Part shown: positions 22,954-50,678 of the stretch, piece by piece
Layout of the letters: each line of letters opens with the position of its first letter
Position numbering within the stretch: position 1 is the first letter of the stretch
The notes under the pieces: model-generated
What the model saw: only the letters and a program-made list of their open reading frames with translations
Told to the model about the DNA's origin: nothing
Database searches by the model: none
Translations under genes and position numbers: made by a program
IMG/VR virus record: IMGVR_UViG_3300048571_000034
Coordinates: 1-50,678 of that record
Length of the DNA: 50,678 nucleotides
Origin: a virus
Direction: 5' to 3' (one strand)

Positions 22954-22997
22954 TATCTTCCCAGCACGATTTATTTTACAAACAGGAAAACTCCACG

Positions 22998-24380
22998 ATG
23001 AACTATGATCCGACCCCTAGCAAAACTCCTCCTCCTCCTAGCTACGCCTATATGGTCCAAGAGAACTCTATCACCGTTCACTTTAGTGATGGTGACGCCT
23101 TCACTTGGCCGAAGGATCATCTTCGTTTCGGAGCAGTAAGAACGGCTCTTTCGGAGATGAAAGATGAGGGAGCAATCCGCGCCCTCATGGACACCGCAGG
23201 AGAAATCCGCGTGGCTCTACAATTTAGGGACTTCACCGTTACTGCACGAAATATCCTATATAAAGATCGCGTCGTTGATCTTCCGGTCGTATCTAAAATC
23301 CTGAAGCTTCAGTCTGAGGGTCTCCCCATTGAACCTGCTCTTAACTTCCTTGAGCGGCTTATTAAGAATCCTCGCCGGTCTAGCGTGGAAAGTCTGTACG
23401 ATTTTCTTTCGCACAATTCCATCCCGCTCACTCAAGACGGGAAGATTGTCGTTTATAAGAAAGTTCGAAGTGATTACAAGGACATTCACAGCGGGACTAT
23501 CGATAACAGCCCAGGACAATCGCCGGAGATGATGCCTTGGGAGGTCGATGAAGATCGCAACAGACCTTGCTCTAACGGACTGCACGTTTGTGGTCGTGAC
23601 TATCTCCCCTCGTTCGGTTTGAGTGAAGATGATCGCGTCGTCATCTGTATTGTTGATCCAGAGCACGTGATCGCAGTCCCTGCGGATTATCAATTCGCTA
23701 AGATGCGCGTGTATAAATACGACGTTGTTGGCGAACTGAAGGACGCGCAAAAGGCGGAGCTTATTGATAAGTGCACTGTCCTCTCGTCTCCTGGGGATAT
23801 GACTGACTACGTCGATTGGGACGATGAGTTCTACTCAGATGAAGATTATAACGAGTATGACGATGACGATGACTGCGATTCTTGTTTGGAGACTCCTCTG
23901 GAAGCAATAGAAGATGCGCTTAAGGAGTTTTATACTGAGCTTGCTTCCGATAAGGAATACACAGAGCACCTAACCGAAAAGCAGGAAGAGGCTCTATACG
24001 CCGAGTACGAGGCGCAAGAGGCGGCTAACAATCCAGACTATGATCCTGAAGACAACAATAACGTGAACGATGAGCCGGACTACGCGGCGATTTATGAGCG
24101 TTACTGGGACAATCTACACAGGGCCTCTAAAGGTGTAGGTTATTTCAAGCTGGATGGTATTCCTGCGAATGTAAGAGCCATGGAGTTGTCCGTCCTGTAC
24201 AAATGGATCAGTGTCGAGGACTTCTTGGGGTTATTCGGAAAAACTATAGAGAGTCAAACTTCTCGGGAAGCCTTGAACGCGTTCAGAGATTACTTGAGCA
24301 CGGAGGACATTGAACGATACTCGAACTACGAAAAGTCCCGCCGCATCTGGAATCTCCTTGTGGCTATCTATGAAAAGTAG
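22998..24380 (+). CDS. rIIB-like protein
   Basis: The central region VVYKKVRSDYKDIHSGTID, followed by CSNGLHVCGRDYLPSFG and VDPEHVIAVPADYQFAKMRV, is the signature of rIIB proteins, and it follows rIIA as in T4. At 460 residues it is longer than T4 rIIB (about 312). The extra ~150 C-terminal residues include an acidic Asp/Glu/Tyr stretch (about residues 275-295) and a helical tail. It is coupled by overlap to the next gene. Confidence 0.85.
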   Translation: MNYDPTPSKTPPPPSYAYMVQENSITVHFSDGDAFTWPKDHLRFGAVRTALSEMKDEGAIRALMDTAGEIRVALQFRDFTVTARNILYKDRVVDLPVVSKILKLQSEGLPIEPALNFLERLIKNPRRSSVESLYDFLSHNSIPLTQDGKIVVYKKVRSDYKDIHSGTIDNSPGQSPEMMPWEVDEDRNRPCSNGLHVCGRDYLPSFGLSEDDRVVICIVDPEHVIAVPADYQFAKMRVYKYDVVGELKDAQKAELIDKCTVLSSPGDMTDYVDWDDEFYSDEDYNEYDDDDDCDSCLETPLEAIEDALKEFYTELASDKEYTEHLTEKQEEALYAEYEAQEAANNPDYDPEDNNNVNDEPDYAAIYERYWDNLHRASKGVGYFKLDGIPANVRAMELSVLYKWISVEDFLGLFGKTIESQTSREALNAFRDYLSTEDIERYSNYEKSRRIWNLLVAIYEK

Positions 24381-25672: not shown

Positions 25673-25741
25673 TCTTGATTTTATGTGGTAGAGACGCTAT
25701 GTAGAGGATGGTTAATTCCGTCTTTTATAGGGTCTTTAAAC

Positions 25742-28700: not shown

Positions 28701-29485
28701 TTTCACCAGCATACGCCGATCCGATAGGTGTGACCAGGGCACTCCAACAGCGCTTATCTGGTAAGAGCTTCATGTCTTGGTCCACGCTGAATCATAACGG
28801 AACTACGACTAGCGCCGTGGGCGTAAGTCTCGTGGTGTCTACGGCCACAAACTTCGTGACGACAGGCTTTTCCGCACGAAACGTCGCAGGCTCAACCACG
28901 AAGGCCGGTACTGTTAAACGTGTCGGTGCCTCGGGCGTATCAACCGCTGGTAGTGGATTGTCTGTTGTGACTAGCAGCAGTCAATACATAACGAGAGGAT
29001 CGGCGGCGGGAGTGGGAGGGTTCACTTTCACGACTGTGTTTGGTGTAGTAACCAAATCAGCTACGGCGAGAGGTTTCTTCGGGCTATCCACCACAGCAGG
29101 AGCGGCTACGGTCCCCTGGATAGGAGCCGGGGCTGTAAATACAGGTGCGGATATCGTAGGGATAGGTTTTGACTCGGGAGATACCAATCTAAGTATATAC
29201 ACTAACGACAACGTGACCACGGGGACAAAAACTGACTTGGGCGCTACTTTCCCGGTGGTGGATGGCGGGTTATACGAACTAATACTCTCTTGTGGCCCTA
29301 ACGCTTCAGATATTAACTATTACGTCCGTAATATCGGAACAGACGCCGTAGTTAGCGGTACGCTTACAACAGACCTTCCGCGAAACGTGACATTCTTGTC
29401 GCCTACATATGTTATGTACAACAACACGGACGCGGTGGGTATGGTGATGGATGTTTCCTCAGTTTTTATTGAGCAATTAAACTAA
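25742..29485 (+). CDS. tailspike with two pectate-lyase-type beta-helix modules
   Basis: A virion receptor-binding or depolymerase protein. The N-terminal ~135 residues form a head/anchor domain. At about residue 140 begins EFNVLDYGAIPQGEASAATN, the pectate-lyase-superfamily entry motif, leading into a parallel beta-helix; a second helix begins at about residue 539 with the same order (YNAADYGVL, GGGLIRVPKG, GIRLTSGVHIQGAGIG, EDLTLDGN, FRIRRGA). The two modules align along their length, showing internal duplication. From about residue 920 a TTQVQYNNAGVFAGASG collar and a Ser/Thr/Gly-rich C-terminal domain follow. ATG 25742 (MAFSSDRS) is preferred to GTG 25685. It is set apart from the tail genes. 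About 1247 residues. Confidence 0.85.
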   Translation: MAFSSDRSAEDTSFKKVVALPDETHLDGFKGIGHFSVKNPPGLPTGSYYLTCFSSKVDGASRIVQIVDNVLTAEQSYRAKNTLGWSAWTVRGSGGGGGSSNASGITYNDATQGYGIGTTPSVAAVLDDILLTLPKNPTREFNVLDYGAIPQGEASAATNRAAFEAAIVAAAAVGGGVIRAPKGEYYVSYGGSASLGGIRLRSNMTLKGDGIGVTIIKCADIGNNDLAGLVRTQSGIENSNVIVQDLTIDGNKAGQSGWANIICFFAGVTPGNRVLMDRNIWCLNVECRNGKNGTAGSANLSRGYGFDPHEVVQGFVAINCIAHDNERDGFVLDGVIDFALTGCRSYNNSRYGYNFITETFNGTVTNCHATSNVANNYMVQGDSHHIAITNCLSNNSGEQGIRIRRGAAVVDTFCTVSNCIIKGSSRNGINITGANYNLISNCIIQDSSSSANNTYMSVSLDEDDGDTLIFTGARNNVVQGCYAIETAIGANHAKHGIREDLTGAQPQNNEYKWNTLVGHVQGAYSTLNATSRRIAFSTDVYNAADYGVLSSLADCRVALQDLVDLVAANGGGLIRVPKGLYALSGTGTASQGGIRLTSGVHIQGAGIGLTTFRLIDMVNVGVTGVFRTLAGGSNSNISIEDLTLDGNAPAQTGTAIIPALYIGGATDAGIRIERCEFKGGNSATGHGARVSAATIGSATDITFRDCIFTSNEGDGLNIQGASGVFVENCTTKNNTLNGLKITDGSIDVQVSNHVSKSNAAVNYIVMDDASNVHFTGGISKSSGQEGFRIRRGATVSETHVTVDGMSIELSSRAGVNVAGASDNVFSNCVFLNNGQLTNSAYSDVLLNKDTTTTTTLAENNVFTGCKLNATGVNKTEYAFRETATEANLNRFYLNSARGQLTSKYLITGAGTLFRDDSNVGATLPGGSTTQVQYNNAGVFAGASGLLYDAVNNRGLVTTSLEILAASQTNAPDSSALLCSRALSSKIVSPAYADPIGVTRALQQRLSGKSFMSWSTLNHNGTTTSAVGVSLVVSTATNFVTTGFSARNVAGSTTKAGTVKRVGASGVSTAGSGLSVVTSSSQYITRGSAAGVGGFTFTTVFGVVTKSATARGFFGLSTTAGAATVPWIGAGAVNTGADIVGIGFDSGDTNLSIYTNDNVTTGTKTDLGATFPVVDGGLYELILSCGPNASDINYYVRNIGTDAVVSGTLTTDLPRNVTFLSPTYVMYNNTDAVGMVMDVSSVFIEQLN

Positions 29486-30322: not shown

Positions 30323-31963
30323 ATGATCACCTATTCGAGCACGCCAGAAGCTACGCAGAAACCTGCGGAATTCTCCTCGTATATCCACCCGGATTACAAC
30401 TACTATTCTCCAGACTGGGTTCACATCCGGGATGCGATGGCAGGAGAGCGTCGTGTTAAGGACAAAGGTGAAGAGTATCTCCCCACACTAGAAACAGACT
30501 CAGTAGCCTACGCCGCTTATCAAGGCCGCGCCGTGTTCGTGAACATGGTCTCAAGAACCGTTCTCGGGATGGTTGGTACCGTTTTTCGCAGACCTCTGAA
30601 AGTCTTTGGAGTAGAAAAAGGAGATATCAAGAACGTCACGAAAGACGGCTTGTCATTGAATGACTTTGCTAAAAAAGCCGCCCTAGAGCTTTGCAGTGTC
30701 GGTCGAATTGGTATCCTAGCAGACATGCAGGAGGAGGTCCCATACCTTACCGAATACCTTGCTGAGAATATCTTGTCTTGGCGCACCGCGACTATCAAGG
30801 GTAAGGAACAACTTATCTACGTCCTGCTGCGAGAGATTGGTGATGACACTCCTATGCTTGAAGGAGATGGTAGTCAGGGAGCCGACTCGGTTGGAAAAAT
30901 AACATCTAGATTCCGGGTACTCCGTCTGAAGAATGGGGTGTATCAGCAGTATGTCTATGACTGGGGCGTTGACGACGAGGATATTCTTAAGTCCCCCGTG
31001 ACAGTTATCACACCGACACGTGGCGGAGCGACGTTTGACTATATCCCTATGGTCATTCCTGGCGCGATTGGTAACACAGTGGATGTTCAACGCTCCCCGG
31101 TGATCGATATCGTCTCTATTAACTTTGCGCATTATAGAACCTCCGCTCAGTTAGAGCATGGCAGATTCTACACAGCGTTGCCTGTTTACTACACAGAAGT
31201 ACCGGCAAACGTGGAAGTGGACCAAGAGTATACTGTAGGTCCCTCCGTCGTTTGGGAAGTACCTGAGGGGTCTAAACCCGGCATCATAGAGTATTTCGGT
31301 ACTGGATTGGCCAGCCTTGAGCGAAGTTTGACAGAAAAAGAGGAACATATCGCTCAACTTGGTGGACGCATCATGGGCATTAGACCGGCTGCAACGGCTG
31401 AGTCAGATAATATATATCGAATGAAGCAAGCAAATGAAATTTCTATACTTATGAATATTACCGACTCTCTTGGAGCGGCTCTAACTCAAGTGATGACGTG
31501 GTATCTTGGTTGGCAAAGAAAACCTACGAAAGATTTACTTGTCAGGCTGAATCAAGACTTCAAATCTCTTAATATCGCTGCACGAGAACTTCGCGCTCTC
31601 GCGCTCCTGCATCAGCAGAACATTCTCCCAATTCAGGCGGTGTACGAGGCGCTACAATCCTCAGAGTTCATCCCGGAAGATTGGACCTTTGTTGATTTCC
31701 AAGAATATCTCAACAACGCAGACAACTTCCCGAATCAGCCAGACGCACAAGCAATGCGGGAAGGCTTCTCGGATGCAGATGCACGCCAGAGGTCTAATCA
31801 GTTGGATCAAACTCATCAGCATGAATTTGATCTTGCAGAACAGGATGAAAAAGTGCAGAAACAGCTTCAGCAAGCTACTTTCAGACAGGCTCAATCTACA
31901 GCTCGTTTGGCAGATCAGCGGGCAGCGAAGAAGCCGGTAGTTGTTCCTAAGAAGGATGAGTAG
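30323..31963 (+). CDS. portal protein (DUF4055-type)
   Basis: This is the dodecameric ring at the capsid vertex through which DNA enters and leaves. The N-terminal block EYLPTLETDSVAYAAYQGRA, followed by FVNMVSRTVLGMVGTVFRRP, is the DUF4055 portal signature. A long beta/alpha region, a helical C-terminal crown and a Gln/Ala-rich tail follow. 546 residues is normal. AAGGGA precedes ATG 30323. It heads the virion operon, with capsid genes after an inserted endonuclease. No terminase gene precedes it, which is unusual. Confidence 0.8.
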   Translation: MITYSSTPEATQKPAEFSSYIHPDYNYYSPDWVHIRDAMAGERRVKDKGEEYLPTLETDSVAYAAYQGRAVFVNMVSRTVLGMVGTVFRRPLKVFGVEKGDIKNVTKDGLSLNDFAKKAALELCSVGRIGILADMQEEVPYLTEYLAENILSWRTATIKGKEQLIYVLLREIGDDTPMLEGDGSQGADSVGKITSRFRVLRLKNGVYQQYVYDWGVDDEDILKSPVTVITPTRGGATFDYIPMVIPGAIGNTVDVQRSPVIDIVSINFAHYRTSAQLEHGRFYTALPVYYTEVPANVEVDQEYTVGPSVVWEVPEGSKPGIIEYFGTGLASLERSLTEKEEHIAQLGGRIMGIRPAATAESDNIYRMKQANEISILMNITDSLGAALTQVMTWYLGWQRKPTKDLLVRLNQDFKSLNIAARELRALALLHQQNILPIQAVYEALQSSEFIPEDWTFVDFQEYLNNADNFPNQPDAQAMREGFSDADARQRSNQLDQTHQHEFDLAEQDEKVQKQLQQATFRQAQSTARLADQRAAKKPVVVPKKDE

Positions 31964-33552
31964 TGTCCCTGCGGATAAAATACCCTCTTTTGAGTAACAA
32001 GAACGGACTTCAAGACCTCATAAATACTGGCGCTTCCGTTCTCTCCGTAGCTATGCTGGTGGGATGTGAACTGTCCTCTGTTTATGTCGCAATAAAACGT
32101 CTGGGGATAGAATTACCAAAGAACGAGAACAATAAAATAACAGACGTTGAGGCGGCTAAGGTGCTGGTCTCACAAGGATACTCCAGAATAGAAATCGCGA
32201 AAAAGCTTGGTGTAAGCCCTTCTGTAGCATACAAGACCCTAAGGGCTACACCCGGTAGTAAGTATCCGCTTGTACAAGACAAAGAATATTTAAAAGTAGA
32301 GGTAGATAGAGGAAGAACAATAAAGGAAATTGCTGAAGATATAGGGTACCCCCGAAAACTGATAGAAAAGAGAATACGAGAGTACGCTTTAATTGACAGA
32401 CGTATTCCGAAGTTGAATGACAGAGATTTCTTACAAGAAAGTATAGATGCAGGAGCGACAATAAAAGGGTTGTCTATAGAGTTTGGGTGCTCTACGACGC
32501 GTGTAAGAAACGCTTTATCTTGTTTAAGTGTACAAGTTAATAGACCCTCTTTAACTTCACGCGCTGGTGAATTACAGGGAGCGCTAGAGTCTTCAAAGTC
32601 TTTACAAGAGGCTGCTGACAAACTAGGATATAGTAAGATACACCTATCCGTAGTTTCTAGAAAACTTGGGCTTTTAACAGGAAAGAATACTAGTGTGTCA
32701 GACATCGAGAAAGAACTTAGAGTCGCTCTGGAGTTCACGCCTTCAGAAGTTTTATATAATTCCAAGTGCATTGGCGGCCAATCGGAGTTAGACATATATT
32801 TTCCGACCAAGGGTATTGGTATTGAAATGGATGGTGTATATTGGCATTCAGAAGATCAACATGAAGACAAACACAACATCCTACACAAGTGGGAAAAAGC
32901 ACGGGATGCTGGAATCCGCTCGATCCATATCCTTGACGTGGAGTGGACTCATAATCGAGAAGCCTGCGTAAATATTCTCACGGCCGCTCTGTCAGATTCA
33001 ATCCAGAAAATCCCAGCACGAAAATGTGAACTAAGAGAGGTTCCGACTAAGGAATCGCGACCCTTCCTGGACAAGTATCACATGCAGGGTTTTGTTCGGT
33101 CAAGTATATGTGTCGGCCTATACCACGAAAACGAGCTTGTAGGGCTTATGTCCTTCGGAGCGACTCGGTATTCAAAGAAAGTAACTCACGAGCTTCTTCG
33201 TTTGTCGTTCAAGACAGGGATAGCTGTGACTGGAGGCTCTGCACGACTCCTGAAGTACGCACAATCCCTCCTTCCTATGGAGAGTATTGTCTCGTACTGC
33301 GATAAGAGGCTCTTCAGCGGAGCTGGGTACGAAAGACTTGGGTTCAAGTTGTCGCACACTTCGGCACCGAACTACTACTACGTCAAGAACAAGGGCAAGA
33401 AGGAAGGCAGAGTCAAATATCAGAAGCACAAGCTTGCCGGTATCCTGAAAACCTTTGATCCAGCGCTCACAGAGTACCAGAACATGAAAGCAAACGGTTA
33501 TCGCAGAATCTGGGACGCGGGTAACGATGTCTATATTCTACATACAACTTAG
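31963..33552 (+). CDS. homing-type endonuclease with HTH repeats, copy 1
   Basis: The N-terminal ~260 residues are about five repeated helix-turn-helix units (e.g. RIEIAKKLGVSPSVAYKTL, TIKEIAEDIGYPRKLIEKRI). The C-terminal half is a nuclease of the type found in free-standing phage homing endonucleases: ELDIYFPTKGIGIEMDGVYW near residue 274, with Asp, Glu and His for metal binding, ILDVEW, then a second conserved domain from RKCELREV to RIWDAG. A GTG start overlaps the portal stop by one base. Its nuclease half differs from copy 2 (41242-42723) at about 22 of 195 residues by eye. It separates the portal from the scaffold gene. The N-terminal DNA (about 32080-32830) looks more AT-rich than the virion genes. 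Confidence 0.82.
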   Translation: MSLRIKYPLLSNKNGLQDLINTGASVLSVAMLVGCELSSVYVAIKRLGIELPKNENNKITDVEAAKVLVSQGYSRIEIAKKLGVSPSVAYKTLRATPGSKYPLVQDKEYLKVEVDRGRTIKEIAEDIGYPRKLIEKRIREYALIDRRIPKLNDRDFLQESIDAGATIKGLSIEFGCSTTRVRNALSCLSVQVNRPSLTSRAGELQGALESSKSLQEAADKLGYSKIHLSVVSRKLGLLTGKNTSVSDIEKELRVALEFTPSEVLYNSKCIGGQSELDIYFPTKGIGIEMDGVYWHSEDQHEDKHNILHKWEKARDAGIRSIHILDVEWTHNREACVNILTAALSDSIQKIPARKCELREVPTKESRPFLDKYHMQGFVRSSICVGLYHENELVGLMSFGATRYSKKVTHELLRLSFKTGIAVTGGSARLLKYAQSLLPMESIVSYCDKRLFSGAGYERLGFKLSHTSAPNYYYVKNKGKKEGRVKYQKHKLAGILKTFDPALTEYQNMKANGYRRIWDAGNDVYILHTT

Positions 33553-36106: not shown

Positions 36107-36490
36107 ATGACACGAAACATCAACGACGTAAGTGTAACTTCACCTGATGGCACTGAGGTGTTTGAAGTATCTCGCTTGAACGCTATCGACCTAGTACAGC
36201 ATAAGGGATTCGCCTACACGAAAGCTAAAGCACAGGCGGACACCTTGGCGCACGCGGCCCGAGGTAAAACTGATCGCGCCCGGAAGAAAGAACTTATGCT
36301 AACCCCCGTTCCGGATATTTCGGAGAGTACAAGCACTGATAAGAAGAATAAAGGGGGTCGTCCTAAGAAACCAGTCGCTCTGGACATTGACCTAACAGAC
36401 GAAACTCCAGAACCCTTTGATAAAAAGAACAAAACGGACCTTTCGATAAACGACCTAGAGGATGAAGAGGAAGAGCGGCTGGGAAACTGA
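36107..36490 (+). CDS. small head-region protein with AT-hook-like motif, 127 residues
   Basis: ATG 36107 (MTRNINDVS) is preferred to 36083 because AAGG sits eight bases upstream and 36083 lies in the terminator tail. The first ~60 residues read as a small domain (SVTSPDGTEVFEVSRLNAID, then LVQHKGFAY) I have seen near portal/capsid genes. The rest is charged and disordered, with GGRPKKP, an AT-hook-like motif, and an acidic tail. It may bind DNA or act in the head-tail joint. Confidence 0.5.
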   Translation: MTRNINDVSVTSPDGTEVFEVSRLNAIDLVQHKGFAYTKAKAQADTLAHAARGKTDRARKKELMLTPVPDISESTSTDKKNKGGRPKKPVALDIDLTDETPEPFDKKNKTDLSINDLEDEEEERLGN

Positions 36491-36571
36491 TAACCAGACT
36501 TCTCCTAGAGTGCGCAAATTGTCGCACTACCGAGTATAAGCAACGTAGATACAAGAAGAAATAGCTCGCTA

Positions 36572-36601
36572 TTGTATGTGGTCGAATTAACCTTATATAA
36601 T
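36572..36601 (+). promoter_or_regulatory. sigma70 promoter for the lysis genes, with TTAACC half-site
   Basis: TTGTAT (36572-36577), an 18-base spacer and TATAAT (36596-36601) precede the holin-like gene at 36632. ATTAACCTTA (36586-36595) abuts the -10, so a protein bound there should interfere with RNA polymerase. Further upstream a stem AGTGCG/CGCACT (36509-36528) may end the previous message. Confidence 0.65.
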
Positions 36602-36631
36602 AAGCTTACCTGTTAATATTAAGGATGTCGT

Positions 36632-36967
36632 GTGAACCCAACACCAGAGCCCGACTGGGCAAGAATTACAGCCGAGTCTCTGTGGGTCCTCCTAGCAATG
36701 GCTGGTGGAGTCGCACGATATCTTGATGAGTATTTGAGAACGGGAATACTCCCGCGGATTGGTCACCTGTTCGCTCACGCTGCGGTAAGCGGTTTTTCTG
36801 GCTACATGGTGGCTCAAGTTTGTCTACGAACAGTACCGGAGTGGTCATTGGTCGCAGCGGGCATCGGTGGGTATCTAGGAACTCAAGGTCTCGAATGGGT
36901 TTCCACAGTTCTCAAGCGCCGCGTTGCTGGTAGCGTAGATTCTGGAGACGAGAATGCTGATAAGTAA
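36632..36967 (+). CDS. holin-like membrane protein (LydA/superfamily III type)
   Basis: Three hydrophobic segments are visible: about residues 12-30, 42-64 and 70-90, with a charged C-terminal tail. The pattern GGVARYLDEYLRTGILPRI with HAAVSGFSGYMVAQ and GIGGYLGTQGLEW resembles LydA-type holins (holin superfamily III). These form the membrane lesion that times lysis. GTG 36632 follows AAGGA. It overlaps the next small membrane gene, and the muramidase follows two genes later. 111 residues fits the class. Confidence 0.75.
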   Translation: MNPTPEPDWARITAESLWVLLAMAGGVARYLDEYLRTGILPRIGHLFAHAAVSGFSGYMVAQVCLRTVPEWSLVAAGIGGYLGTQGLEWVSTVLKRRVAGSVDSGDENADK

Positions 36968-40705: not shown

Positions 40706-41294
40706 TAAATATATCTTGGCCCCCTGGATGACCTACGCCGAATCGTATATCGGTCTGAAGGAATTCAAAGGCGGCGAGAATGAGACTATTCTGGAATTCT
40801 TCCGCAAGGTTGGACACCCCGAAATAAAAGAAGACGAAGTACCTTGGTGCTCAGCTTTCGCAGGAGCCTGTCTTGTTATGGCAGGTTATGATGGGACGAA
40901 AAGTCTCATGGCTAGGTCTTGGCTCAATTGGAAAAAAGCCGAGACCATTCACAGTCCGCGCTTTGGAGATATCTGCGTATTCTCCAGAGGCTCTGGTAAA
41001 GTATATGGACACGTAGCATTCTTCATAAAGTGGGATAATGATTACATCTATTGCTTGGGCGGGAATCAAGCGAACAGCGTTAGTGTGACGAAAATCTCGC
41101 GGGATAAACTCGTCGGCATCCGACGACCAGTCCTTGTAGGGTCCGCACCACCCCCGAAAAAAGATAGTTTGATAGTACCCGCGGCGATCCCTGTAGGTGT
41201 TGGTCTGGTGTCGTACCTAGAACCACAAGTGCTGTGGTTTGCTATACTAACTGGTCTCGCGGTCTATCTGGTCTGGCGAGCACAGCGTCGGTGA
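40698..41294 (+). CDS. cell-wall hydrolase (NlpC/P60-like, TIGR02594 type) with C-terminal anchor
   Basis: The cysteine peptidase core reads VPWCSAFAGACLVMAGY (nucleophile Cys51), FGDICVFSRGSGKVYGHVAF (His105) and GGNQANSVSV, the order of the TIGR02594 phage endolysin-like family, which cuts peptidoglycan peptide bonds. Residues 157-193 form two hydrophobic segments split by a short turn, a C-terminal membrane anchor also seen in the muramidase. Its last bases overlap copy 2 of the endonuclease. It may act in lysis or, as a virion enzyme, in entry. Confidence 0.75.
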   Translation: MDNKYILAPWMTYAESYIGLKEFKGGENETILEFFRKVGHPEIKEDEVPWCSAFAGACLVMAGYDGTKSLMARSWLNWKKAETIHSPRFGDICVFSRGSGKVYGHVAFFIKWDNDYIYCLGGNQANSVSVTKISRDKLVGIRRPVLVGSAPPPKKDSLIVPAAIPVGVGLVSYLEPQVLWFAILTGLAVYLVWRAQRR

Positions 41295-42723
41295 GAACGT
41301 AAACGTCGTTACCCGCGTCCCAGATTCTACGGTACCCGTTGGCCTTCATATTCTGGTACTCTGTAAGTGCAGGGTCAAAGTTTTTTAGTATACCGGCAAG
41401 CTTGTGCTTCTGGTATTTTACTCGTGATTCTTTGTTCCCATTGTTTTTGACGTAGTAGTAGTTCGGAGACGAAGTGTGCGACAACTTGAACCCGAGTCTT
41501 TCGTACCCAGCGCCGCTGAAGAGTCTACGGTCGCAGTATGAGACAATACTCTCCATAGGAAGGATGGCTTGTGCGTACTTCAACAAGCGAGCAGCGCCTC
41601 CAATCACAGATACGCCCGTCTTGAAGGACAACCTAAGAAGTTCATGCGTTACTTTCTTTGAGTACCGCGTTGCTCCAAAGGACATGAGGCCTACAAGTTC
41701 CTCTTCGAAGTATAGTCCCACACAAAGACTTGACCGAACAAAACCCTGCATGTGGTACTTGTCCAGGAAGGGTCTCGATTCCTTCGTCTCTACTTTCCTA
41801 AGTTCACATTTTCGTGCTGGGATTTTGTGTATTGAATCTGATATCGCGGCCGTGAGGATGTTTACGCAAGCTTCACGTTTATACGCCCACTCTACATCAA
41901 GAATGTGGATCGAGCGGATTCCTGCATCCCGTGCTTTTTCGTGCTTGTGTAGGATGTTGTGCTTGTCGCGGTGAACATCTTCCGCGTGCCAGTAGTACCC
42001 ATCTAGCTCAACACCAATATTCTTGAAGGGGAAGTAGAGGTCAAGCTCGAACGCACCCTCAAGACATTTTGTGTTGTACAGTACAGGTATGAGGGCAATC
42101 TCTCGGACTTTGTGTTTTAGTGTATTTTCTACAGCAGATGTTCCACTCTCAGAATCCTTAAGACCCAGCTTGGTAACAACTTGTTGTGTATGTACTGCGC
42201 TATAACCCAACAACTCGGCGGCATCAGAGACTACACCGTTTGCCTTCTCCATTGCATCCACGAGTTCCAGAGGACGATCAGCCAATCCGTCGCGGAAGTA
42301 CGGTATACTCAACCTCTTCAAAGCGCCTTTTACCGCATTGCCGGAGCAGCCTATTTCTTTTCCAATTTCCGCTAAGGTGTAGCCTTCAAGTAGGCTTTTC
42401 TCCAAATACTCTTTGTTTTTAAGTAGCGCGTGTTGTCTGGACTTTACTAAGCCAAAGCGGTCTTGTGCTACGAAAACAGAAGAAGCGTGACAACCTACAG
42501 TTTGTGCTATCTCTTTCGGGGTCTTCCCCTGATCAAGTAGGGCTTTTAGTAGCGCAGGATCACGAAGTACAGGGAACTTAGCCGGGGGCTTGAAGCTTAG
42601 TGACAGTAGTCTCCTCTGTATAGTTGTACTGCTAACTCCTAAGGATTCTGCTATATCCTTGGAACTTAAGCCTTTTTCAGCCAGCATAGCGATAGCGGCA
42701 TTATCTAATTGAATTTTTCTCAT
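41242..42723 (-). CDS. homing-type endonuclease with HTH repeats, copy 2
   Basis: The N-terminal ~200 residues are about four HTH repeats (SSKDIAESLGVSSTTIQRRL, TPKEIAQTVGCHASSVFVAQ). The C-terminal half is the nuclease shared with copy 1: ELDLYFPFKNIGVELDGYYW, ILDVEWAYKREACV, then the RKCELRKV-to-RIWDAGNDVY domain, with about 22 of 195 residues different by eye. At its end the homology stops at NDVYVL, and the frame continues through the 3' end of the hydrolase gene, ending at 41242 with foreign residues. So the element's own stop appears lost or never copied, and its boundary lies just after the hydrolase stop (about 41295). The element is opposite to all neighbours. Confidence 0.8.
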   Translation of the reverse strand: MRKIQLDNAAIAMLAEKGLSSKDIAESLGVSSTTIQRRLLSLSFKPPAKFPVLRDPALLKALLDQGKTPKEIAQTVGCHASSVFVAQDRFGLVKSRQHALLKNKEYLEKSLLEGYTLAEIGKEIGCSGNAVKGALKRLSIPYFRDGLADRPLELVDAMEKANGVVSDAAELLGYSAVHTQQVVTKLGLKDSESGTSAVENTLKHKVREIALIPVLYNTKCLEGAFELDLYFPFKNIGVELDGYYWHAEDVHRDKHNILHKHEKARDAGIRSIHILDVEWAYKREACVNILTAAISDSIHKIPARKCELRKVETKESRPFLDKYHMQGFVRSSLCVGLYFEEELVGLMSFGATRYSKKVTHELLRLSFKTGVSVIGGAARLLKYAQAILPMESIVSYCDRRLFSGAGYERLGFKLSHTSSPNYYYVKNNGNKESRVKYQKHKLAGILKNFDPALTEYQNMKANGYRRIWDAGNDVYVLTDAVLARPDRPRDQLV

Positions 42724-42841: not shown

Positions 42842-44707
42842 ATGCCCATTAACCAGTGCGGACTACAGGCAGCAGAATCTAATCGCGCCTCCCTCCGCTA
42901 TCTCAAAGAGGACGACAACTGCTGGGGCGTTACCCCCAGTACGGGTTCTTCGCGTGAACTCCGTATTACCGCGTCGTCTCTCGCTGCAAACAAAGAAACT
43001 GTCGTTTCGGAAGAACTTCGCGCCGATAGAATGGTTGCCGATGTTATCGAGACCGCTGCGATGTCTGGCGGGGATATCGACACCGAATTTTCGGCGGGTT
43101 CGCTGGATGACTTCATGCAGGCCTTCGTCTTGGGCGCTTGGTCTCGTCCAATGACCTTTGATAAGTTCGAAGGTACCGTTGTTAGTATGAATGACAACGC
43201 TGGAACTACTGAAATTCTAATTAGCGGTGGGAATTACACAGGGTATTTCGTGGTCGGCCGTCGTATTAAAACTGAGGGCTTCATCTCCCCCGCTAATAAC
43301 AATTATTGGCAGATCGCTTCCGTATCCTTTGCAGGTGGTATTACAACCATCGTCACCACGGGAACAACGGCCGTTGACGAAACTGGTAAGGACTACTCTA
43401 AGGTCCTGGATGCCAACGACGTTATCGTGATGAAGAACACGGCAATCCGAGCAGGAACTGGTGCCACGCAAACTTTTGACAGTAACGGCGGTAATGTTTT
43501 CACTACTGCTATTACTGTTGGTCAGTTGGTCGTCGGTCAGAAAATCTACGTCTCTGGCCTTGGCTACGAGGAGGGAACATTCACGCTTGGTACTAACCCC
43601 ACAGACGCCGAGACAGTCACTATCAACGACGGCGAACGCCTCGTAGTGTTCGAGTTTGATAACAACAACGCGTTTGTACGCGGGAATGTAGGCGTTACTA
43701 TCGGCGTTTCGGCTAACGCAACCGCTGCAAACCTCCAAGCTGCAATTATGGATCAACTTTGGAAGAAGAAGATCAAATGCTCGGCTTCGGTTACTACGAA
43801 CGTAGTAACTGTTCGTAACTTGAACGAGAACCAAGTGGCTAATGCCGCTCTGACAACTTTGCTTGAGAACACTGCGGCTGTAGTCGCCGTGACTTTCAGT
43901 GGCGGCACGGATACCTTCGGTGTCTACACGATCACGAACCTCACGAATGACGTAATCACGGTCGCTGAGCCGGTTGCCGTAAACGCGAATGCTGGTGTGG
44001 TCCCTGTCACGATCAAGGGCTCGCATTTGCGCAACCCAGGTAACTTGGATGATATTACTCCTCAGTCGTTTACGATTGAGACAGGCTTCACCGACGTAAA
44101 CCAGTATTTCAGACAAACTGGTATGCGCGTAGGCGGTATCGAACTCTCCGTTGGATCGGGTGAGTTGGTTACAGCCAAAGTTGACCTAATGGGTAAAGAA
44201 ACGACAACCTCGGTCACTTCTATTTTGGGCTCGGCTCCTTATACCGCGCTCGCCTCTACTGCAACGCCAGTGCTGAACGCCACTACGAATGTTGGTAATA
44301 TCTACAAAAATGGCGAACTTCTAGCTACTGCGTTGCAATCTATTGAAATCACTGGTGAAGCTGCTCTCCGTGAACAGCGCGCCGTTGGTTCGCGTTTCCC
44401 TGCGGGTATCGGCACTGGTCGGTTCAACTTGACGGGTAAGTTTACGTCTTACTTCGAGAATCTCGAACTCTACGATGACTTCCTAACACACAACACTATC
44501 TCCTTGGCGTTTGACTTCAAGGACAACGACTATAGCGCTTACTGGTTTACTATCCCCGCGTTGAAGATCACGTCTGATCCAATTTCGCCGGGCGGTATCG
44601 ACCAGGATGTTCTTGAGGAGCTAGAGTGGGTGGCTATTCGCGATCCCGGCCTGAATACGATGTTCATGGTTGATCGGTTTAGCTCTGTTCTTGGCGCAAC
44701 GGCATAA
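42842..44707 (+). CDS. tail tube protein with large inserted domain
   Basis: The N-terminal block (NRASLRYLKEDDNCWGVTPS, TASSLAANKETVVSEELRAD, then MSGGDIDTEFSAGSLDDFMQ) is that of phage tail tube proteins of the 'Phage_tube_2' type. The C-terminal block (SFTIETGFTDVNQYFRQTGM, MGKETTTSVTS, then EITGEAALREQRAVGSRFPA) completes it. Between them about 280 residues of Thr/Val/Asn-rich beta sequence are inserted, likely an Ig-like or other surface domain. 621 residues, against about 200-300 for plain tube proteins. It forms the long tube through which DNA passes. Confidence 0.75.
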   Translation: MPINQCGLQAAESNRASLRYLKEDDNCWGVTPSTGSSRELRITASSLAANKETVVSEELRADRMVADVIETAAMSGGDIDTEFSAGSLDDFMQAFVLGAWSRPMTFDKFEGTVVSMNDNAGTTEILISGGNYTGYFVVGRRIKTEGFISPANNNYWQIASVSFAGGITTIVTTGTTAVDETGKDYSKVLDANDVIVMKNTAIRAGTGATQTFDSNGGNVFTTAITVGQLVVGQKIYVSGLGYEEGTFTLGTNPTDAETVTINDGERLVVFEFDNNNAFVRGNVGVTIGVSANATAANLQAAIMDQLWKKKIKCSASVTTNVVTVRNLNENQVANAALTTLLENTAAVVAVTFSGGTDTFGVYTITNLTNDVITVAEPVAVNANAGVVPVTIKGSHLRNPGNLDDITPQSFTIETGFTDVNQYFRQTGMRVGGIELSVGSGELVTAKVDLMGKETTTSVTSILGSAPYTALASTATPVLNATTNVGNIYKNGELLATALQSIEITGEAALREQRAVGSRFPAGIGTGRFNLTGKFTSYFENLELYDDFLTHNTISLAFDFKDNDYSAYWFTIPALKITSDPISPGGIDQDVLEELEWVAIRDPGLNTMFMVDRFSSVLGATA

Positions 44708-44710
44708 AAA

Positions 44711-45166
44711 GTGAGTAAGAGCGACGCCTTTGAAATTGATATTTTGGCCGTCTTGTTTAACAAAACAGGAATACCTAATATCTCAGACGGAGGCGCTGCT
44801 GAAGAGTTCTTTGTGTCGTTACACACTGCGGCAATAACGGACCCTACTACGCAAAGTACGAGTGAAATTGCCTATGATGGTTATGAAAGACAATCGCTAG
44901 GAAGACGATCAGGATTCTTTTTGGTCGGCGTTGCTATCGATGAAAACAGAAACCGGGCGATTAATGTAGACGCGATACACTTTCCCCGTGTCGGGAGCGC
45001 ACCGAGTGGGAATCCCACTTACTGGGCTATCGGAACGGAAAGAGAAGGAACAGGTAAGGTACTGTACTGGGGATCAACATCCTTCACCGGAACCCTATCG
45101 ACGGGAGGTTTTGTTTCGTTACGAAAGCTTGTCGTGGTTGAAGAAGACGCTGGGAATTCAGTTTAA
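44711..45166 (+). CDS. virion protein of the LHTADPG family, copy 1
   Basis: A GTG start lies four bases after the tube stop. The sequence MSKSDAFEIDILAVLFNKTG, then FVSLHTAA, STSEIAYDGYERQSLGR, and a Gly-rich beta end matches a phage family in which the LHTADPG and GYxR motifs mark a small virion or tail protein of uncertain role. It is a paralogue of the next gene (45189) but more divergent from the motif (HTAAITDPTTQ in place of HTADPGEAGTQ). 151 residues. Confidence 0.65.
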   Translation: MSKSDAFEIDILAVLFNKTGIPNISDGGAAEEFFVSLHTAAITDPTTQSTSEIAYDGYERQSLGRRSGFFLVGVAIDENRNRAINVDAIHFPRVGSAPSGNPTYWAIGTEREGTGKVLYWGSTSFTGTLSTGGFVSLRKLVVVEEDAGNSV

Positions 45167-45188
45167 CTAGGAAAAAGGAACTACTAAG

Positions 45189-45620
45189 ATGTCTAAGGGC
45201 GATACTTTTGAAAATGACTGGCTTCGGTTGGTATTCAATGCAGTGGCCATTGCCAATGTTGCGGACAACGCTGCCACTTCACCACTGACAAGCTTGTTCT
45301 TGTCACTTCATACGGCTGATCCGGGTGAAGCTGGCACGCAGTCTACCAGTGAAATTGCTTACACAGGCTATGCTCGTGTGGCTGTGGCAAGAACCGTTGG
45401 TGGTTGGACTGTTACTGGATCGTCAGTATCACCTGCGGCTAATATCGACTTCGCCAACATGACTGGTGGAGCTGGTGGTACCGCGACGTTCGCCGCTGTA
45501 GGAGTGGCCTCTACCGGTGCAACCAAGATTCTCTATAAGGGTGCACTCACTCCTTCAATCTCGGTTGTCACGGGAACGACTCCACGCTTGACAACGGCTT
45601 CGACTATCACTGAAGACTAA
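45189..45620 (+). CDS. virion protein of the LHTADPG family, copy 2
   Basis: This is the clearer member of the pair: MSKGDTFENDWLRLVFNAVA, then SLHTADPGEAGTQSTSEIAY, TGYARVAVARTVGGWTVTGS, and a Gly/Ala/Thr-rich beta end. AGGA precedes ATG 45189. The family is common beside tail fibre and tube genes of siphoviruses and is often labelled tail fibre protein. 143 residues. Confidence 0.7.
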   Translation: MSKGDTFENDWLRLVFNAVAIANVADNAATSPLTSLFLSLHTADPGEAGTQSTSEIAYTGYARVAVARTVGGWTVTGSSVSPAANIDFANMTGGAGGTATFAAVGVASTGATKILYKGALTPSISVVTGTTPRLTTASTITED

Positions 45621-45688
45621 GTTTCGTTTTTCGGGTCGCGATCTAACCCCTAGCAATGCGACTCGCTTTGCTATATAGATAGGCTACC

Positions 45689-46816
45689 ATGAAATACACA
45701 AATGTCTCCCGACTAGAACGCTGGCTTGGTGCTCCGAAAGTTGAAGAACTTTCGGGGCTAATGGCTAATTGGTATGGTCCTCCCATCGCGCTACACGGTG
45801 TGCCTGGGGCCGTATACATTACCGGTGACGGAAACTTCATTGGTGAATGTCGCGCTGGTTTTGAGATGAGTCTTCTTGACCGCGCATACGATCTTAAGAA
45901 CAGGGTATCGCGTGCAATGCGTATTTGTTCTAAGGAACACGCGGCTCGTATGAATATTGGTTTCACGGGCCTCAGCGATCTGCTGTTTGAGGCCACTAAC
46001 GGCGCAAAGCGCCAAGAGATATTTTACCAAAAAGTAGGCGTTGTAGGTGTTGCTAGCGCCAGCAATACTTTATGGAATTTGGGGAACCAACCTGCGGCCG
46101 GTGTATTACCACCCGCTGCCCCCGGAGGTCGCGCTTGTGTTTCTACGACCGTAGGTGCTATTCCTTTTCTATCGATGAGTGCCACAGGTTCTCCAACGGA
46201 CACGCTTCATCTCGTCTCCGCGAATAGTATTGCCAGCGCCGCTGGTATGAGTCTACTTCTCTATGATCGTATCTTCGACGTGGCTAAGACGATGAATTCC
46301 AACGCGGTTGATACTGTTACGGGCGTCCCCACAAGATATCAGACAAACGGTTTGTCTGGAGATAGCGCTGTAGCTGGTAACTTTATGTTTGTAGAGTGTC
46401 ATACAGCTCTACCCAATACAGCACATACGCTAAATATAGGATACCTCGATGAGACAGGAACGTCTCGTGGGGTAGTAGTTACCGGAAATAATAGCAACAT
46501 TGCCAACCGCTTTGATATGCCCGTAAACCAGTGGTTCGTACCTTTAAACACTTCGGGTGTGGTCGGCGTTAAAGCGATAACAACAATGCAGCATAACACG
46601 ACTGTTGCTACAGGCACGCTTGCTGTTGTTATCGGGCATCCTCTCGCCTGGATCGCGCATCCTCTAGCTAACCAAGTCATGGTCATGGATTATATTAGTA
46701 GCTCCTTCAACCTTGCTCGCGTACATAATGATGCGTGTCTTTCGCTAATAGAGCCTATCAAGAGCGCCACAACCGCAACGACATATAATGGTAGCTTCAC
46801 ACTAGTAGGGGGATAA
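45689..46816 (+). CDS. tandem paralogous virion protein, copy 1 of 4 (375 residues)
   Basis: The first of four tandem paralogues. Shared landmarks: N-terminal NVSRLERWLG, WYGPPIALHGVPG, VYITGDGNFIGE, GFTGLSDLLFEAT near residue 92, SLLLYDRIFDVAKTMNSNAV near residue 190, TGVPTRYQ, NTAHTLNIGYLDETG, an IGHPLAWIAHPLANQ block near residue 315 and a closing TYNGSFTLVGG. The middle of each protein differs most. I recall similar unnamed proteins in other phages but no function. The domain is all beta-rich with few Cys. Expected in the virion from its place; no enzyme motif. A small stem (TAGCAATGCG/CGCTTTGCTA) lies upstream. Confidence 0.65.
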   Translation: MKYTNVSRLERWLGAPKVEELSGLMANWYGPPIALHGVPGAVYITGDGNFIGECRAGFEMSLLDRAYDLKNRVSRAMRICSKEHAARMNIGFTGLSDLLFEATNGAKRQEIFYQKVGVVGVASASNTLWNLGNQPAAGVLPPAAPGGRACVSTTVGAIPFLSMSATGSPTDTLHLVSANSIASAAGMSLLLYDRIFDVAKTMNSNAVDTVTGVPTRYQTNGLSGDSAVAGNFMFVECHTALPNTAHTLNIGYLDETGTSRGVVVTGNNSNIANRFDMPVNQWFVPLNTSGVVGVKAITTMQHNTTVATGTLAVVIGHPLAWIAHPLANQVMVMDYISSSFNLARVHNDACLSLIEPIKSATTATTYNGSFTLVGG

Positions 46817-46821
46817 GGTTT

Positions 46822-47919
46822 GTGTTCACTAACGTATCCCGCCTTGAACGCTGGCTCGGTCCAGATAAAGTCCTAGAGATATCTAGTGGAATGAGGGGCT
46901 GGCACGGTGCTCCTATTTCCCTCCACGGTGTCCCTGGAAATGTTCATGTAACCGGGGATGGTAATTTCATCGGGGAGTGTGCGGCTGGGTGGGAGACCTC
47001 TTTCGTGGATAGAGGTCAGGATATTTGTAGAAGACTCAAAAGAGCGATTAAAGTAGCGAGCATCGGCAGAGCTACAACACTCCACGCGGGCCTTACGAGT
47101 CTATCAGACATCGTAGCTGAAGCTTGCGCCGGGAAGCGACAAGAGTCTCTGTTCTACAAAGCTGGCGTAGCTGGAACCACAGGTAATCACCACACGCTGT
47201 GGACGGCCGCAGGGCAACCCGTGGCAGGCTCTATAGGTACCGCGATACCCGCGGGGAGGCAGTGTACTCAAACTATCACTGGAGCCCTGAGACTAAACTA
47301 CACCGCAGATGATCTTTTTATTCAATGCGCTAGTAGTTTCTCAGCAAATGCTGGAGGGACGCTACTGCTGTATGACCGTCTTTGGGATGGCAGTTTCAAC
47401 ATGAATTCTACCGCGGTTCAGTCGATAACTGGAACTCTCGTTCGACACCAGGGGGTAAACAATCCCGGAAATATCGGAACTAAAGGTTTATCCGATTCTA
47501 ACTTCGCGTTTGTTGAAACAATAACGACGCTGGCGAATACAGCGCACAATATAACATTGAACTATCAAGACCAGACAGATACGGCTAGAGCCAACCTAGA
47601 TTCTGGCATAGCGGCATGTATTGCGAATAGATTAGATCACGCCTCGTGGTTTTTCCGTACAGGATTCAGCGTGTCACGCCCCACAGGTATACAGCTAAGC
47701 GATGCCGTTGCCACTGGGACCGCAGATTTGGTCGTGGGTCATCCTCTGACTTGGATAGCACACCTTCTCGCGCTCCAAGTCTGTATACACGATAACGTGA
47801 ATACAGCATTTAACATGCGAACAGTTGATTCTGGTACTTGCCTCTCTTTCTTGGAGCCATTCAAGTCCGCTGCTGCTGCGAATACTTTCACTGGAACAAT
47901 TGTCACGGTGAGTGGATAA
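46822..47919 (+). CDS. tandem paralogous virion protein, copy 2 of 4 (365 residues)
   Basis: It starts with GTG five bases after copy 1. The landmarks are kept (NVSRLERWLG, GDGNFIGECAAG, GLTSLSDIVAEA, TLLLYDRLWDGSFNMNSTAV, VVGHPLTWIAHLLALQ), but details drift: GTP near the TRYQ position becomes GTLVRHQ, and the C-terminus ends in FTGTIVTVSG. DNA identity with copy 1 is low, so the duplication is old. It probably forms a virion component together with the others. Confidence 0.65.
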   Translation: MFTNVSRLERWLGPDKVLEISSGMRGWHGAPISLHGVPGNVHVTGDGNFIGECAAGWETSFVDRGQDICRRLKRAIKVASIGRATTLHAGLTSLSDIVAEACAGKRQESLFYKAGVAGTTGNHHTLWTAAGQPVAGSIGTAIPAGRQCTQTITGALRLNYTADDLFIQCASSFSANAGGTLLLYDRLWDGSFNMNSTAVQSITGTLVRHQGVNNPGNIGTKGLSDSNFAFVETITTLANTAHNITLNYQDQTDTARANLDSGIAACIANRLDHASWFFRTGFSVSRPTGIQLSDAVATGTADLVVGHPLTWIAHLLALQVCIHDNVNTAFNMRTVDSGTCLSFLEPFKSAAAANTFTGTIVTVSG

Positions 47920-47921
47920 TC

Positions 47922-49010
47922 ATGAAATTTATTAACGTAAGCCAGTTGGAACGATGGCTAACCCCCGGTAAGGTGGAAGAGTTATCGAATAGTTGTTTAG
48001 GGTGGTATGGTGATCCTATTCCTCTACGTGGTGTGCCTGGAGAAGTATACATAACAGGTGACGGTAATTTTGTAGGAACATTCCACGAAGGTAAAGAGGC
48101 TACGTGGTTTGATCGGATAAGAGATGTTGTAAAAAGAATCGACAAGACTGCCCACAGAAGTCAACTCAATGTCGGTTTCACAGGTCTCCCTGATCTTATA
48201 TATGAGCAAACAAGAAACACACAGAGATTCAATTACAGAAAAACATCGGTCGCAGGCGTGACTGCGGGAACCACATCCTTATGGTTGGTCGGTACTTATC
48301 CTGCTGTTGGTGTCGTCGCTGCTAATGCGCCGGGAGGAAGTGTATTAAACAATACGACTACTGGAGGCTTCACGACGTTAGTAGCGCCGAACGGTACAGA
48401 TACACTACATATCGAGAGTTATAGTTCGTGCTCTTCCGCAGGTGGTTCCTCTCTCCTGTTGTATGATCGACTATTCTCTGTAAACAAAACAATGGCCTCT
48501 ACCACTCTGGAGTCAGTTACGGGCGTTCCTACGAGATATCAAAATACAAGCATAACGAACCCCGAGTACATCGGTGGCAATTTCATCATTGCTGAAGTAT
48601 CGACAACGGTATCAGCCACAGCGCATACTTGGACTGTAGACTTCGTAGACGAAGCAGGAGGGGCTTCCACGACCACTTTTACAGGGACATCCGGTTCCAC
48701 AGCCGGTACATTAATTTCTGGAACCGGCAGATGGTTCATCCCGTTGGGGGTTAAGCGAGGAGTCAAAAACATCACTGCAATAACTTGCTCCGCTTCTCTT
48801 GCAGCCGGTGCTGTCCAGTTTGGTATTGGAAGACCAATCGCAATGTTCATCCACCCCCTAGCGAACACCCTTATGGAGATGGATTTTTCCTTCTATAATT
48901 TCAACATGGTCCGCGTACTACCAACGGCCTGTCTGGCCTTTATTGAGCCAATAAAAGCAGCAGGAAACGCCGCCACATACACAGGTCAATTTAGCTTGGT
49001 GGGTGGATAA
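47922..49010 (+). CDS. tandem paralogous virion protein, copy 3 of 4 (362 residues)
   Basis: It begins at ATG 47922, two bases after copy 2, with GTGAG as weak ribosome binding site. The landmarks are kept (NVSQLERWLT, GDGNFVGTF, SLLLYDRLFSVNKTMASTTL, TGVPTRYQ, IGRPIAMFIHPLANTL, TYTGQFSLVGG). The middle is richer in Thr and Gly than in the others (TTTFTGTSGSTAGTLISGTG). Confidence 0.65.
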   Translation: MKFINVSQLERWLTPGKVEELSNSCLGWYGDPIPLRGVPGEVYITGDGNFVGTFHEGKEATWFDRIRDVVKRIDKTAHRSQLNVGFTGLPDLIYEQTRNTQRFNYRKTSVAGVTAGTTSLWLVGTYPAVGVVAANAPGGSVLNNTTTGGFTTLVAPNGTDTLHIESYSSCSSAGGSSLLLYDRLFSVNKTMASTTLESVTGVPTRYQNTSITNPEYIGGNFIIAEVSTTVSATAHTWTVDFVDEAGGASTTTFTGTSGSTAGTLISGTGRWFIPLGVKRGVKNITAITCSASLAAGAVQFGIGRPIAMFIHPLANTLMEMDFSFYNFNMVRVLPTACLAFIEPIKAAGNAATYTGQFSLVGG

Positions 49011-49011
49011 T

Positions 49012-50124
49012 ATGACCTTTACAAATTTATCTAGATTGGAGCGCTGGGCTGGCGCTGATAGAATTCAAGAACTATCTCACTCAATGTGCGGATGGTACGG
49101 ACCACCTATAGCCCTCGGGGGTGTTCCGGGAGAAGTTTACATAACAGGGGACGGCAACTTCATCGGAGATTGTACGGAGGGGTTTGAGTGCTCTTATTTG
49201 GATAGAGCCTACGATTTATTTACTAGAGCGTCGAAGCGCGCCTCTAGTTCCCTTCATGTCGGTTTTTCCGGATTAGAGGATATGATCTATGAAGCGACTT
49301 TAAGACAAAACAAACAGAGTCTCTATTTCCAGAAAGAAATGTTTACTTCGATCTTTCCTGGCTTCAGTTTATCCCTAGCACAACAGGTAGGACAGCCGAT
49401 AAGAAGCACCTTTTTTCCTGCGGTCGGGACTAATGGCGCTTGTGATCTAGTTACGAACGGTACAGCGTCCATGGTAGGCTCCCTTCCGTTTGCGTCACCA
49501 AAAAGCGGTAATAGTTTGCATGTCGTGAATGCAAATACGTTCGCACTTACCCCTGGGGCGTTGCTTCTCTACGACCGACTGTACGTGAATGCGTTTGGCT
49601 CAGCCTCTACCACGCTAGATACAGTCAGTCACGCTCCGACTCGGTATCAGAATACGGTGACTAAGGTTAGTGATTCCGTGGAGGGAAACTTTTGTTTTGC
49701 GGAGCATATCATCGTTGGAGGTGTACTCAACACCGCACACAACATCAACATAACTTACGCAGATCAAACCGGTGCGGCTCAGAGTAGTCCAGTGACTGCT
49801 GGAGTAGTCTCTGCGGGTTTAGATGGTAGAGTAGATCACACAAACTGGTATCTCCCGTTGGCGGCTGGTACGACCGGTATAAGGAGACTGAATGCTATTC
49901 AAGTAAGTATCGCCACAACAGGTCGCCTAGCTATGGTCATAGGTCGCCCTCTTTCTTGGTTTCTGAACCCAGTGGCAAACCTTGTATGTCAACAGGACAA
50001 ACTTAATACCGCAGCTAGTCTTGTCCGGATACTTCCTGGTGCCTATTTATCCTTAATAGATTACCAAAGGATGGTTTCGGCAACGCAAGTAATTAGCGGC
50101 GAATTGACGCTACTAGAGGGTTAA
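49012..50124 (+). CDS. tandem paralogous virion protein, copy 4 of 4 (370 residues)
   Basis: It begins at ATG 49012, one base after copy 3's stop. The landmarks are kept with drift (NLSRLERWAG, GDGNFIGDCTEG, GFSGLEDMIYEA, LLLYDRLYVNAFGSASTTL, APTRYQN, IGRPLSWFLNPVANLV, SGELTLLEG). The middle block (GFSLSLAQQVGQPIRSTFF) differs most from the others. It is followed by an open gene of repeats, so the array may continue functionally there. Confidence 0.65.
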   Translation: MTFTNLSRLERWAGADRIQELSHSMCGWYGPPIALGGVPGEVYITGDGNFIGDCTEGFECSYLDRAYDLFTRASKRASSSLHVGFSGLEDMIYEATLRQNKQSLYFQKEMFTSIFPGFSLSLAQQVGQPIRSTFFPAVGTNGACDLVTNGTASMVGSLPFASPKSGNSLHVVNANTFALTPGALLLYDRLYVNAFGSASTTLDTVSHAPTRYQNTVTKVSDSVEGNFCFAEHIIVGGVLNTAHNINITYADQTGAAQSSPVTAGVVSAGLDGRVDHTNWYLPLAAGTTGIRRLNAIQVSIATTGRLAMVIGRPLSWFLNPVANLVCQQDKLNTAASLVRILPGAYLSLIDYQRMVSATQVISGELTLLEG

Positions 50125-50130
50125 ACTTAG

Positions 50131-50678
50131 ATGCAGCGATGGAGTCCAGGAAGTTCCACGATGACGCGTATCCCGCGTCTAAGTTGGCGCGTCCTACATA
50201 CAACTCCGTCACTACAACCTATCGGCTATACTGTACCACAGACTAGCGGTATTCCAATAATCGAGGATGGAGCGCTATTTAATTTCAACGCCTCAAACGA
50301 TGTCTTCGACGGTGTTCCGCTCGCTAACGTGCCCACGGCGGTGGTTTCTTGGGTAGGCGCGACTGGTGATACGATAGTCACTGCGGTGATGGGTGCGGCT
50401 GGTACGGCCGCTGCTTCATTCTCTGCGGTGGCCTTCTCTGCTGCTGTTATTAGCTCGGCTGGTACGGCCGCTGTTTCCTTCACAGGACAGGTGACCGCAG
50501 CTTCTGCTCTCAGCTCGGCTGGTACGGCCGCTGCTTCATTCTCTGCGGTGGCCTTCTCTGCTGCTGCGCTCAGCTCGGCTGGTACGGCCGCTGCTTCATT
50601 CTCTGCCACGGTTCTCTCTGCTGCTGCGCTCAGCTCGGCTGGTACGGCCGCTGCTTCATTCTCTGCGGTGGCCTTCTC
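50131..50678 (+). CDS. repeat-rich virion protein, incomplete at the window's right end
   Basis: The frame from ATG 50131 stays open through 182 codons to the window edge. The first ~90 residues are a unique beta-like segment (PIIEDGALFNFNASNDVFDG). From about residue 90 the chain turns into 20-residue Ala/Ser/Gly/Thr repeats (SSAGTAAASFSAVAF pattern). It may be a tail fibre or surface protein with a flexible repeat stalk. The gene is partial only because the window stops. Confidence 0.7.
   Translation, partial: MQRWSPGSSTMTRIPRLSWRVLHTTPSLQPIGYTVPQTSGIPIIEDGALFNFNASNDVFDGVPLANVPTAVVSWVGATGDTIVTAVMGAAGTAAASFSAVAFSAAVISSAGTAAVSFTGQVTAASALSSAGTAAASFSAVAFSAAALSSAGTAAASFSATVLSAAALSSAGTAAASFSAVAF
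50399..50678 (+). repeat. 60-bp tandem repeats within the last gene
   Basis: The unit begins GCTGGTACGGCCGCTGCTTC and recurs at 50399, 50459, 50519, 50579 and 50639 with exactly 60-base spacing and few changes. Each unit codes for 20 residues, so the frame is kept. The window ends inside the array, so the copy number is not known. Confidence 0.9.

Follow-up and report, generated by a model that had tools for sequence, protein, structure and literature searches.

Fiber I of Ralstonia phage GP4 (gp80, PDB 8JOU, PF23140) is the described protein closest to the genes upstream of the array reported here; chain g of 8JOU, a GP4 protein, is described as a fibril by which an adhesin is joined to the nozzle collar of the tail (PMC13243795). 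In phages of Rhodobacter capsulatus, five genes with no assigned function form a block common to RcZahn (genes 37-41) and RcD (genes 10-14), which infect the same host but are otherwise dissimilar (PMC8601537). In the Ackermannviridae, a branched tailspike complex gives each particle several adhesins that attach by a common scheme but differ in their binding bodies (PMC11414711).

The window, meaning the whole 50,678-base linear IMG/VR viral contig that was analysed, was compared with these systems. The products at 45189 and, in diverged form, at 44711 are homologs of GP4 fiber I, and the former directly precedes four tandem genes whose own products are not homologous to Gp80 and have no sequence match among PDB chains, those of GP4 included. 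RcZahn gp40 and RcPescado gp13, which sit in the shared R. capsulatus block, have the same family core as the four products, but each is a single copy without the N-domain and with distant sequence similarity only. Protein UOF80954 of podovirus ct7QV12 (MW202713) is full-length, with both N-domain and core, and is 40% identical to copy 1; unlike the window's genes, it is encoded as a single copy between the portal and scaffold genes. The Ackermannviridae adhesins are polysaccharide-recognising tailspikes, whereas the four products of the window are shorter, undescribed, beta-rich proteins without an enzyme signature, and their receptor role is putative. The four copies are listed below.

45689-46816, + strand: copy 1, ATG start, 375 aa; N-domain at about residues 1-90, beta-rich core at about 91-375
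46822-47919, + strand: copy 2, GTG start, 365 aa
47922-49010, + strand: copy 3, ATG at 47922, 362 aa; the mechanical ORF begins upstream at a TTG
49012-50124, + strand: copy 4, ATG at 49012, 370 aa; the mechanical ORF begins at 49003

An earlier note on this DNA had described four tightly spaced paralogs in a row, and this was borne out: all four are complete ORFs on the + strand, with gaps of 5, 2 and 1 bases between them, and identity to copy 1 over the full length was 47% (copy 2), 46% (copy 3) and 42% (copy 4). Copy 4 is the most diverged. The homology of the four greatly exceeds chance expectation: a profile of the four copies recovered each of them at E < 1e-176 (the same four built the profile) and had no other match in the contig, and profiles that included members from other phages also recovered all four. 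The set of landmarks said to be kept in every copy exists, but GDGNF and LLLYDR are the only invariant ones among those listed. GDGNFIGE occurs unaltered in copies 1 and 2, TGVPTRYQ in copies 1 and 3 (TGTLVRHQ in copy 2, SHAPTRYQ in copy 4), and GHPLAWIAHPLAN in copy 1 only; the closing Gly-Gly is found in copies 1 and 3, with Ser-Gly in copy 2 and Glu-Gly in copy 4. Shine-Dalgarno-like sequences (GGGGGATAAGG, GTGAGTGGA and GGTGGGTGGA, at 46800-46824, 47905-47924 and 48998-49014) directly precede the start of the next copy and overlap the Gly-Gly or Ser-Gly and stop codons at the ends of copies 1-3, so these closing residues may be partly kept for translation of the next copy.

Searches of copies 1-4 against Pfam, PHROGs and NCBIfam gave best E-values not below 0.04, no convincing match to PDB sequences was obtained, and PF23140 (Gp80) matched none of the copies, although it did match the neighbour at 45189-45620. 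The N-domain, searched alone among all retrieved ORFs, was present in no other protein type. AlphaFold2 models were obtained with pLDDT 89.8 and pTM 0.89 for copy 1 and with pLDDT 85.6 and pTM 0.83 for copy 4, and the order of elements was the same in both: helices near residues 6-24, a helix from residue 62, a core-opening helix, and then a beta-rich core. The check by structure prediction that the earlier note had proposed thus yielded, for single chains of copies 1 and 4, a confident shared fold with a small helical N-domain and a beta-rich core, which from these models is tentatively a beta-sandwich.

Foldseek searches of BFVD returned uncharacterised proteins of uncultured phages as the only high-confidence matches (best TM 0.89). 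Searches of the PDB returned mainly jelly-roll proteins with E-values down to 1e-5, which were not counted as fold matches because TM-scores were at most 0.25, with rmsd near 20. A jelly-roll viral capsid or receptor domain (birnavirus VP2, TNF-like lectin PLTL) was rejected as not superposable on these values, and the likeness to birnavirus VP2 was also rejected at TM-scores below 0.2.

Relatives were recovered from viral contigs when the ct7QV12 protein was used together with the four copies, which by themselves had yielded none, probably because their patterns were too narrow. The family was detected at about 100 IMG/VR loci, mostly at full length, and in a few named phages; these counts are of loci, some of which are overlapping pieces of one contig. 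In bacterial and archaeal genome assemblies, only one contig, from a MAG, was hit. One copy was present in 71 of the 77 loci having at least 1.2 kb on each side of the match. Arrays bearing the N-domain were found in the window (four copies), L031 (three), and L045, L055 and L074 (two each), the counts in the latter four loci being verified by whole-contig searches; arrays of two to four are a minority, and the window has the highest copy number seen. Core-only relatives, which lack the N-domain, were found in MW202738 (two adjacent copies), Rctr197k (three copies, one of which a frame break divides), Rhodobacter phages, Pseudanabaena phage PA-SR01, and the 642-kb phage LR756502 (two copies, L114 161-6287). 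The best explanation of this distribution is an undescribed, widespread family of phage virion proteins that is normally single-copy, of which the window holds a lineage-specific tandem expansion.

The claim that the copies differ at the DNA level was confirmed, since bases at shared four-fold sites agreed at ~20-50% in most comparisons, which is near saturation. Divergence in the middle, as the earlier note put it, is present but is better described as conservation of the N-terminal ~60 residues and divergence of the body. Mean identity among the window copies was 64% over residues 1-60 versus 35% over residues 111-375, compared with 51% and 53% in pairs from different contigs; because sequence pairs are non-independent, these contrasts are descriptive figures and not p-values. 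The front-minus-core difference in the window was 28 points, and none of 19,814 random quartets, drawn from different contigs, had a difference as large (mean -2.7, maximum 21). Among one phage's copies, the N-terminal part is therefore conserved relative to the body in an adhesin-type pattern. The difference was 20 points in L031, 18 in L045, 3 in L055 and 2 in L074, and so two of the five arrays show little contrast. Recent gene conversion was ruled out as the cause of the conserved N-terminus by the near-saturated four-fold sites, which argue that the front end is held by protein-level selection and not by recent copying.

The window's four copies grouped together in a tree of 102 sequences with an SH-aLRT of 93 (below the starred level of 95), and branches were 0.68 for copy 1, the shortest of the four, and 1.38-2.15 for copies 2-4; long branches in this tree are uncertain by the tool's own warning. 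Identity to the family consensus over the N-terminal 60 residues and the core was 64/52% for copy 1 and 50-52/39-46% for copies 2-4. Copy 1 thus seems to be of the ancestral type, with copies 2-4 as the diversified ones. The suggestion of a graded assembly gains little from this result: copy 1 is nearest the consensus and the others are derived, but the pattern is one of duplication history. The two copies of L055 were not sisters in the tree, nor were those of L074, and they may therefore have been acquired separately.

The gene context supports the label of a virion region that the four genes had been given. The neighbouring structural genes of the window are as follows.

30323: portal
33679: scaffold
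34587: major capsid
Between the major capsid and tail terminator: holin, endolysin and head-tail adaptor
39999: tail terminator
42842-44707: tail tube (PF18906, E 2.5e-35)
44711-45166, + strand: diverged Gp80/phrog_240 adaptor-like protein, 151 aa, GTG start, 37% identical to the product of 45189-45620
45189-45620, + strand: Gp80-like protein, homolog of Ralstonia phage GP4 'fiber I', 143 aa
50131-50676, + strand: Ala/Ser/Gly repeat protein of 60-nt units, last cassette gene, start only, cut by the contig end

The product of 45189-45620 matched PF23140 at E 7e-14 (52.7 bits, cut-off 27) and phrog_240 at E 4.5e-15. That of 44711-45166 alone gave E 0.022 against phrog_240, and BLAST clusters it with 45189-45620. 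The aligned Gp80-like set, used as a profile, matched PDB 8jou_a, 'Virion-associated phage protein' (E 5e-7). The contig stops within the 60-nt repeat of its last gene (50396-50678), so the assembly probably broke there and the genes beyond are unseen.

The order of a Gp80-like gene, family gene and repeat-protein gene forms a portable cassette that was also found in L093, L094 and the 642-kb phage. Across loci, the preceding gene often encodes a protein of ~130-150 residues, from several sequence families, and the following gene often encodes a repeat protein. From portal to tail tube, L094, the closest genome relative found, is collinear with the window; it has one Gp80-like, one family and one repeat gene between the capsid-associated genes and the holin, and its repeat protein shows tblastx similarity to that of the window. 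This slot is empty in the window, where the cassette lies after the tail tube (window 36490-36632 and 44707-50678 compared with L094 8302-18631). Both the position and the copy number of the cassette have thus changed between these lineages. Relocation mediated by a homing endonuclease was considered, with an endonuclease-like ORF lying at 41242-42723. This ORF (- strand) and a related one at 31963-33552 (+ strand) break the structural gene order and have HTH and homing/HNH-endonuclease or Mom-like matches.

In other phages, family members have virion genes for fibres, adaptors or glycan-active proteins as neighbours. A tail fibre with a collagen/YadA stalk is followed in the 642-kb phage by the Gp80-like gene, the two family copies and the repeat gene; an alginate lyase lies directly behind the two copies in MW202738; and a BNR/sortilin-type propeller is among the family's neighbours in L014. 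The RcZahn member is at the distal end of the tail genes, behind tail-tip and fibre-like genes and a PTR-repeat protein, and its five-gene block has ~70-73% nucleotide similarity to that of RcD phages. In PHROGs, the neighbour families phrog_240 and phrog_3758 are labelled 'head and packaging'.

From these results we infer, with a probability of about 0.5, that the four copies encode adhesin-like appendages of the virion, which have the docking end in common and are diversified in the body. The N-terminal ~60-90 residues would form the docking end, fitting one partner in the particle, for which the Gp80-like fibre protein encoded upstream, or the tail, is a candidate. The beta-rich cores would face outward and bind cell-surface targets, probably glycans, and duplication would have given one phage four bodies for one dock, shown together or as alternatives. 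This reading is favoured because the front/core contrast of the window was reached by no random quartet, because the least and most diverged copies share a confident fold and no frame is broken, and because the upstream neighbours are Gp80 homologs. It also draws on the fibre or glycan genes around relatives (642-kb phage, MW202738, RcZahn), on the recurrence of the RcZahn/RcD block in otherwise different phages, and on the single copy at another position in the collinear L094. Receptor variants, one of three ideas in the earlier note, therefore fit best, given the shared front, diversified bodies, fibre- and polysaccharide-related neighbours and exchanged cassette. Counting against adhesins are the 'head and packaging' labels of neighbours, the portal-scaffold position in ct7QV12, the lack of a superposable solved fold from Foldseek, the weak contrast in L055 and L074, and the separate beta-helix tailspike that the window phage encodes at 25685-29485. 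As core-only relatives lack the N-domain, docking must differ there.

Conservation of the N-terminus could equally be explained by contacts between copies. The N-domains might hold the four proteins together in a single mixed complex, with a fixed place for each; such contacts would also leave residues 1-60 conserved within a phage, the genes are closely spaced in a single order, and the upstream Gp80-like gene is likewise duplicated. We consider this hetero-oligomer unlikely, as contacts that ran the length of the bodies should have kept the cores conserved too, and the 71 single-copy loci indicate that the family works without such partners. The copy-number comparison proposed in the earlier note accordingly speaks against an obligatory hetero-oligomer as the working mode of the family, since most relatives have one copy.

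The family might instead coat the capsid or head-tail junction, the copies being structural paralogs without receptor function. Although the PHROGs labels, the cassette's place beside capsid genes in L094 and the ct7QV12 position would suit such decoration, tail or fibre genes surround the cassette in the window, in RcZahn and in the 642-kb phage, the cassette's position in the gene order varies between relatives, and decoration proteins have no obvious need of diversified bodies; we judge this improbable. That copy 1 is functional and copies 2-4 are drifting leftovers agrees with the closeness of copy 1 to the consensus and with its short branch beside the long ones of the others. Redundancy of this kind is nevertheless very improbable, because no frame is broken, the protein sequence of the N-terminus is conserved despite near-saturated synonymous sites, and copy 4 retains a confident predicted fold.

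Extending the adhesin reading, we suggest tentatively, and as a rather doubtful proposal, that the cassette serves tailed phages as a mobile and self-contained module for adhesion, in genomes ranging from ~40 kb to the 642-kb phage. The adhesin would have been multiplied in place on a phage-specific dock, giving one virion a built-in set of binding heads without retroelement or inversion switching. No reverse transcriptase was found among the larger window ORFs scanned, in a contig that is incomplete, and the region searched for template and variable repeats (44600-50678) contained the paralogs and the 60-nt array as its only repeats. If the copies are alternative adhesins, plain gene duplication would be a simple route to widen or hedge adsorption, with the single-copy relatives as natural controls. 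Common as it is in environmental phages, the family is absent from the three profile libraries searched, and the contrast between docking end and body offers a sequence-only test for the anchor end of an unknown virion protein.

The beta-helix tailspike of the window has 1266 residues, and its C-terminal part (1022-1263) matches phrog_13925, which is also strongly matched by RcZahn gp39, the gene directly before family member gp40. RIIA- and RIIB-like genes lie adjacent at 20752-24380.
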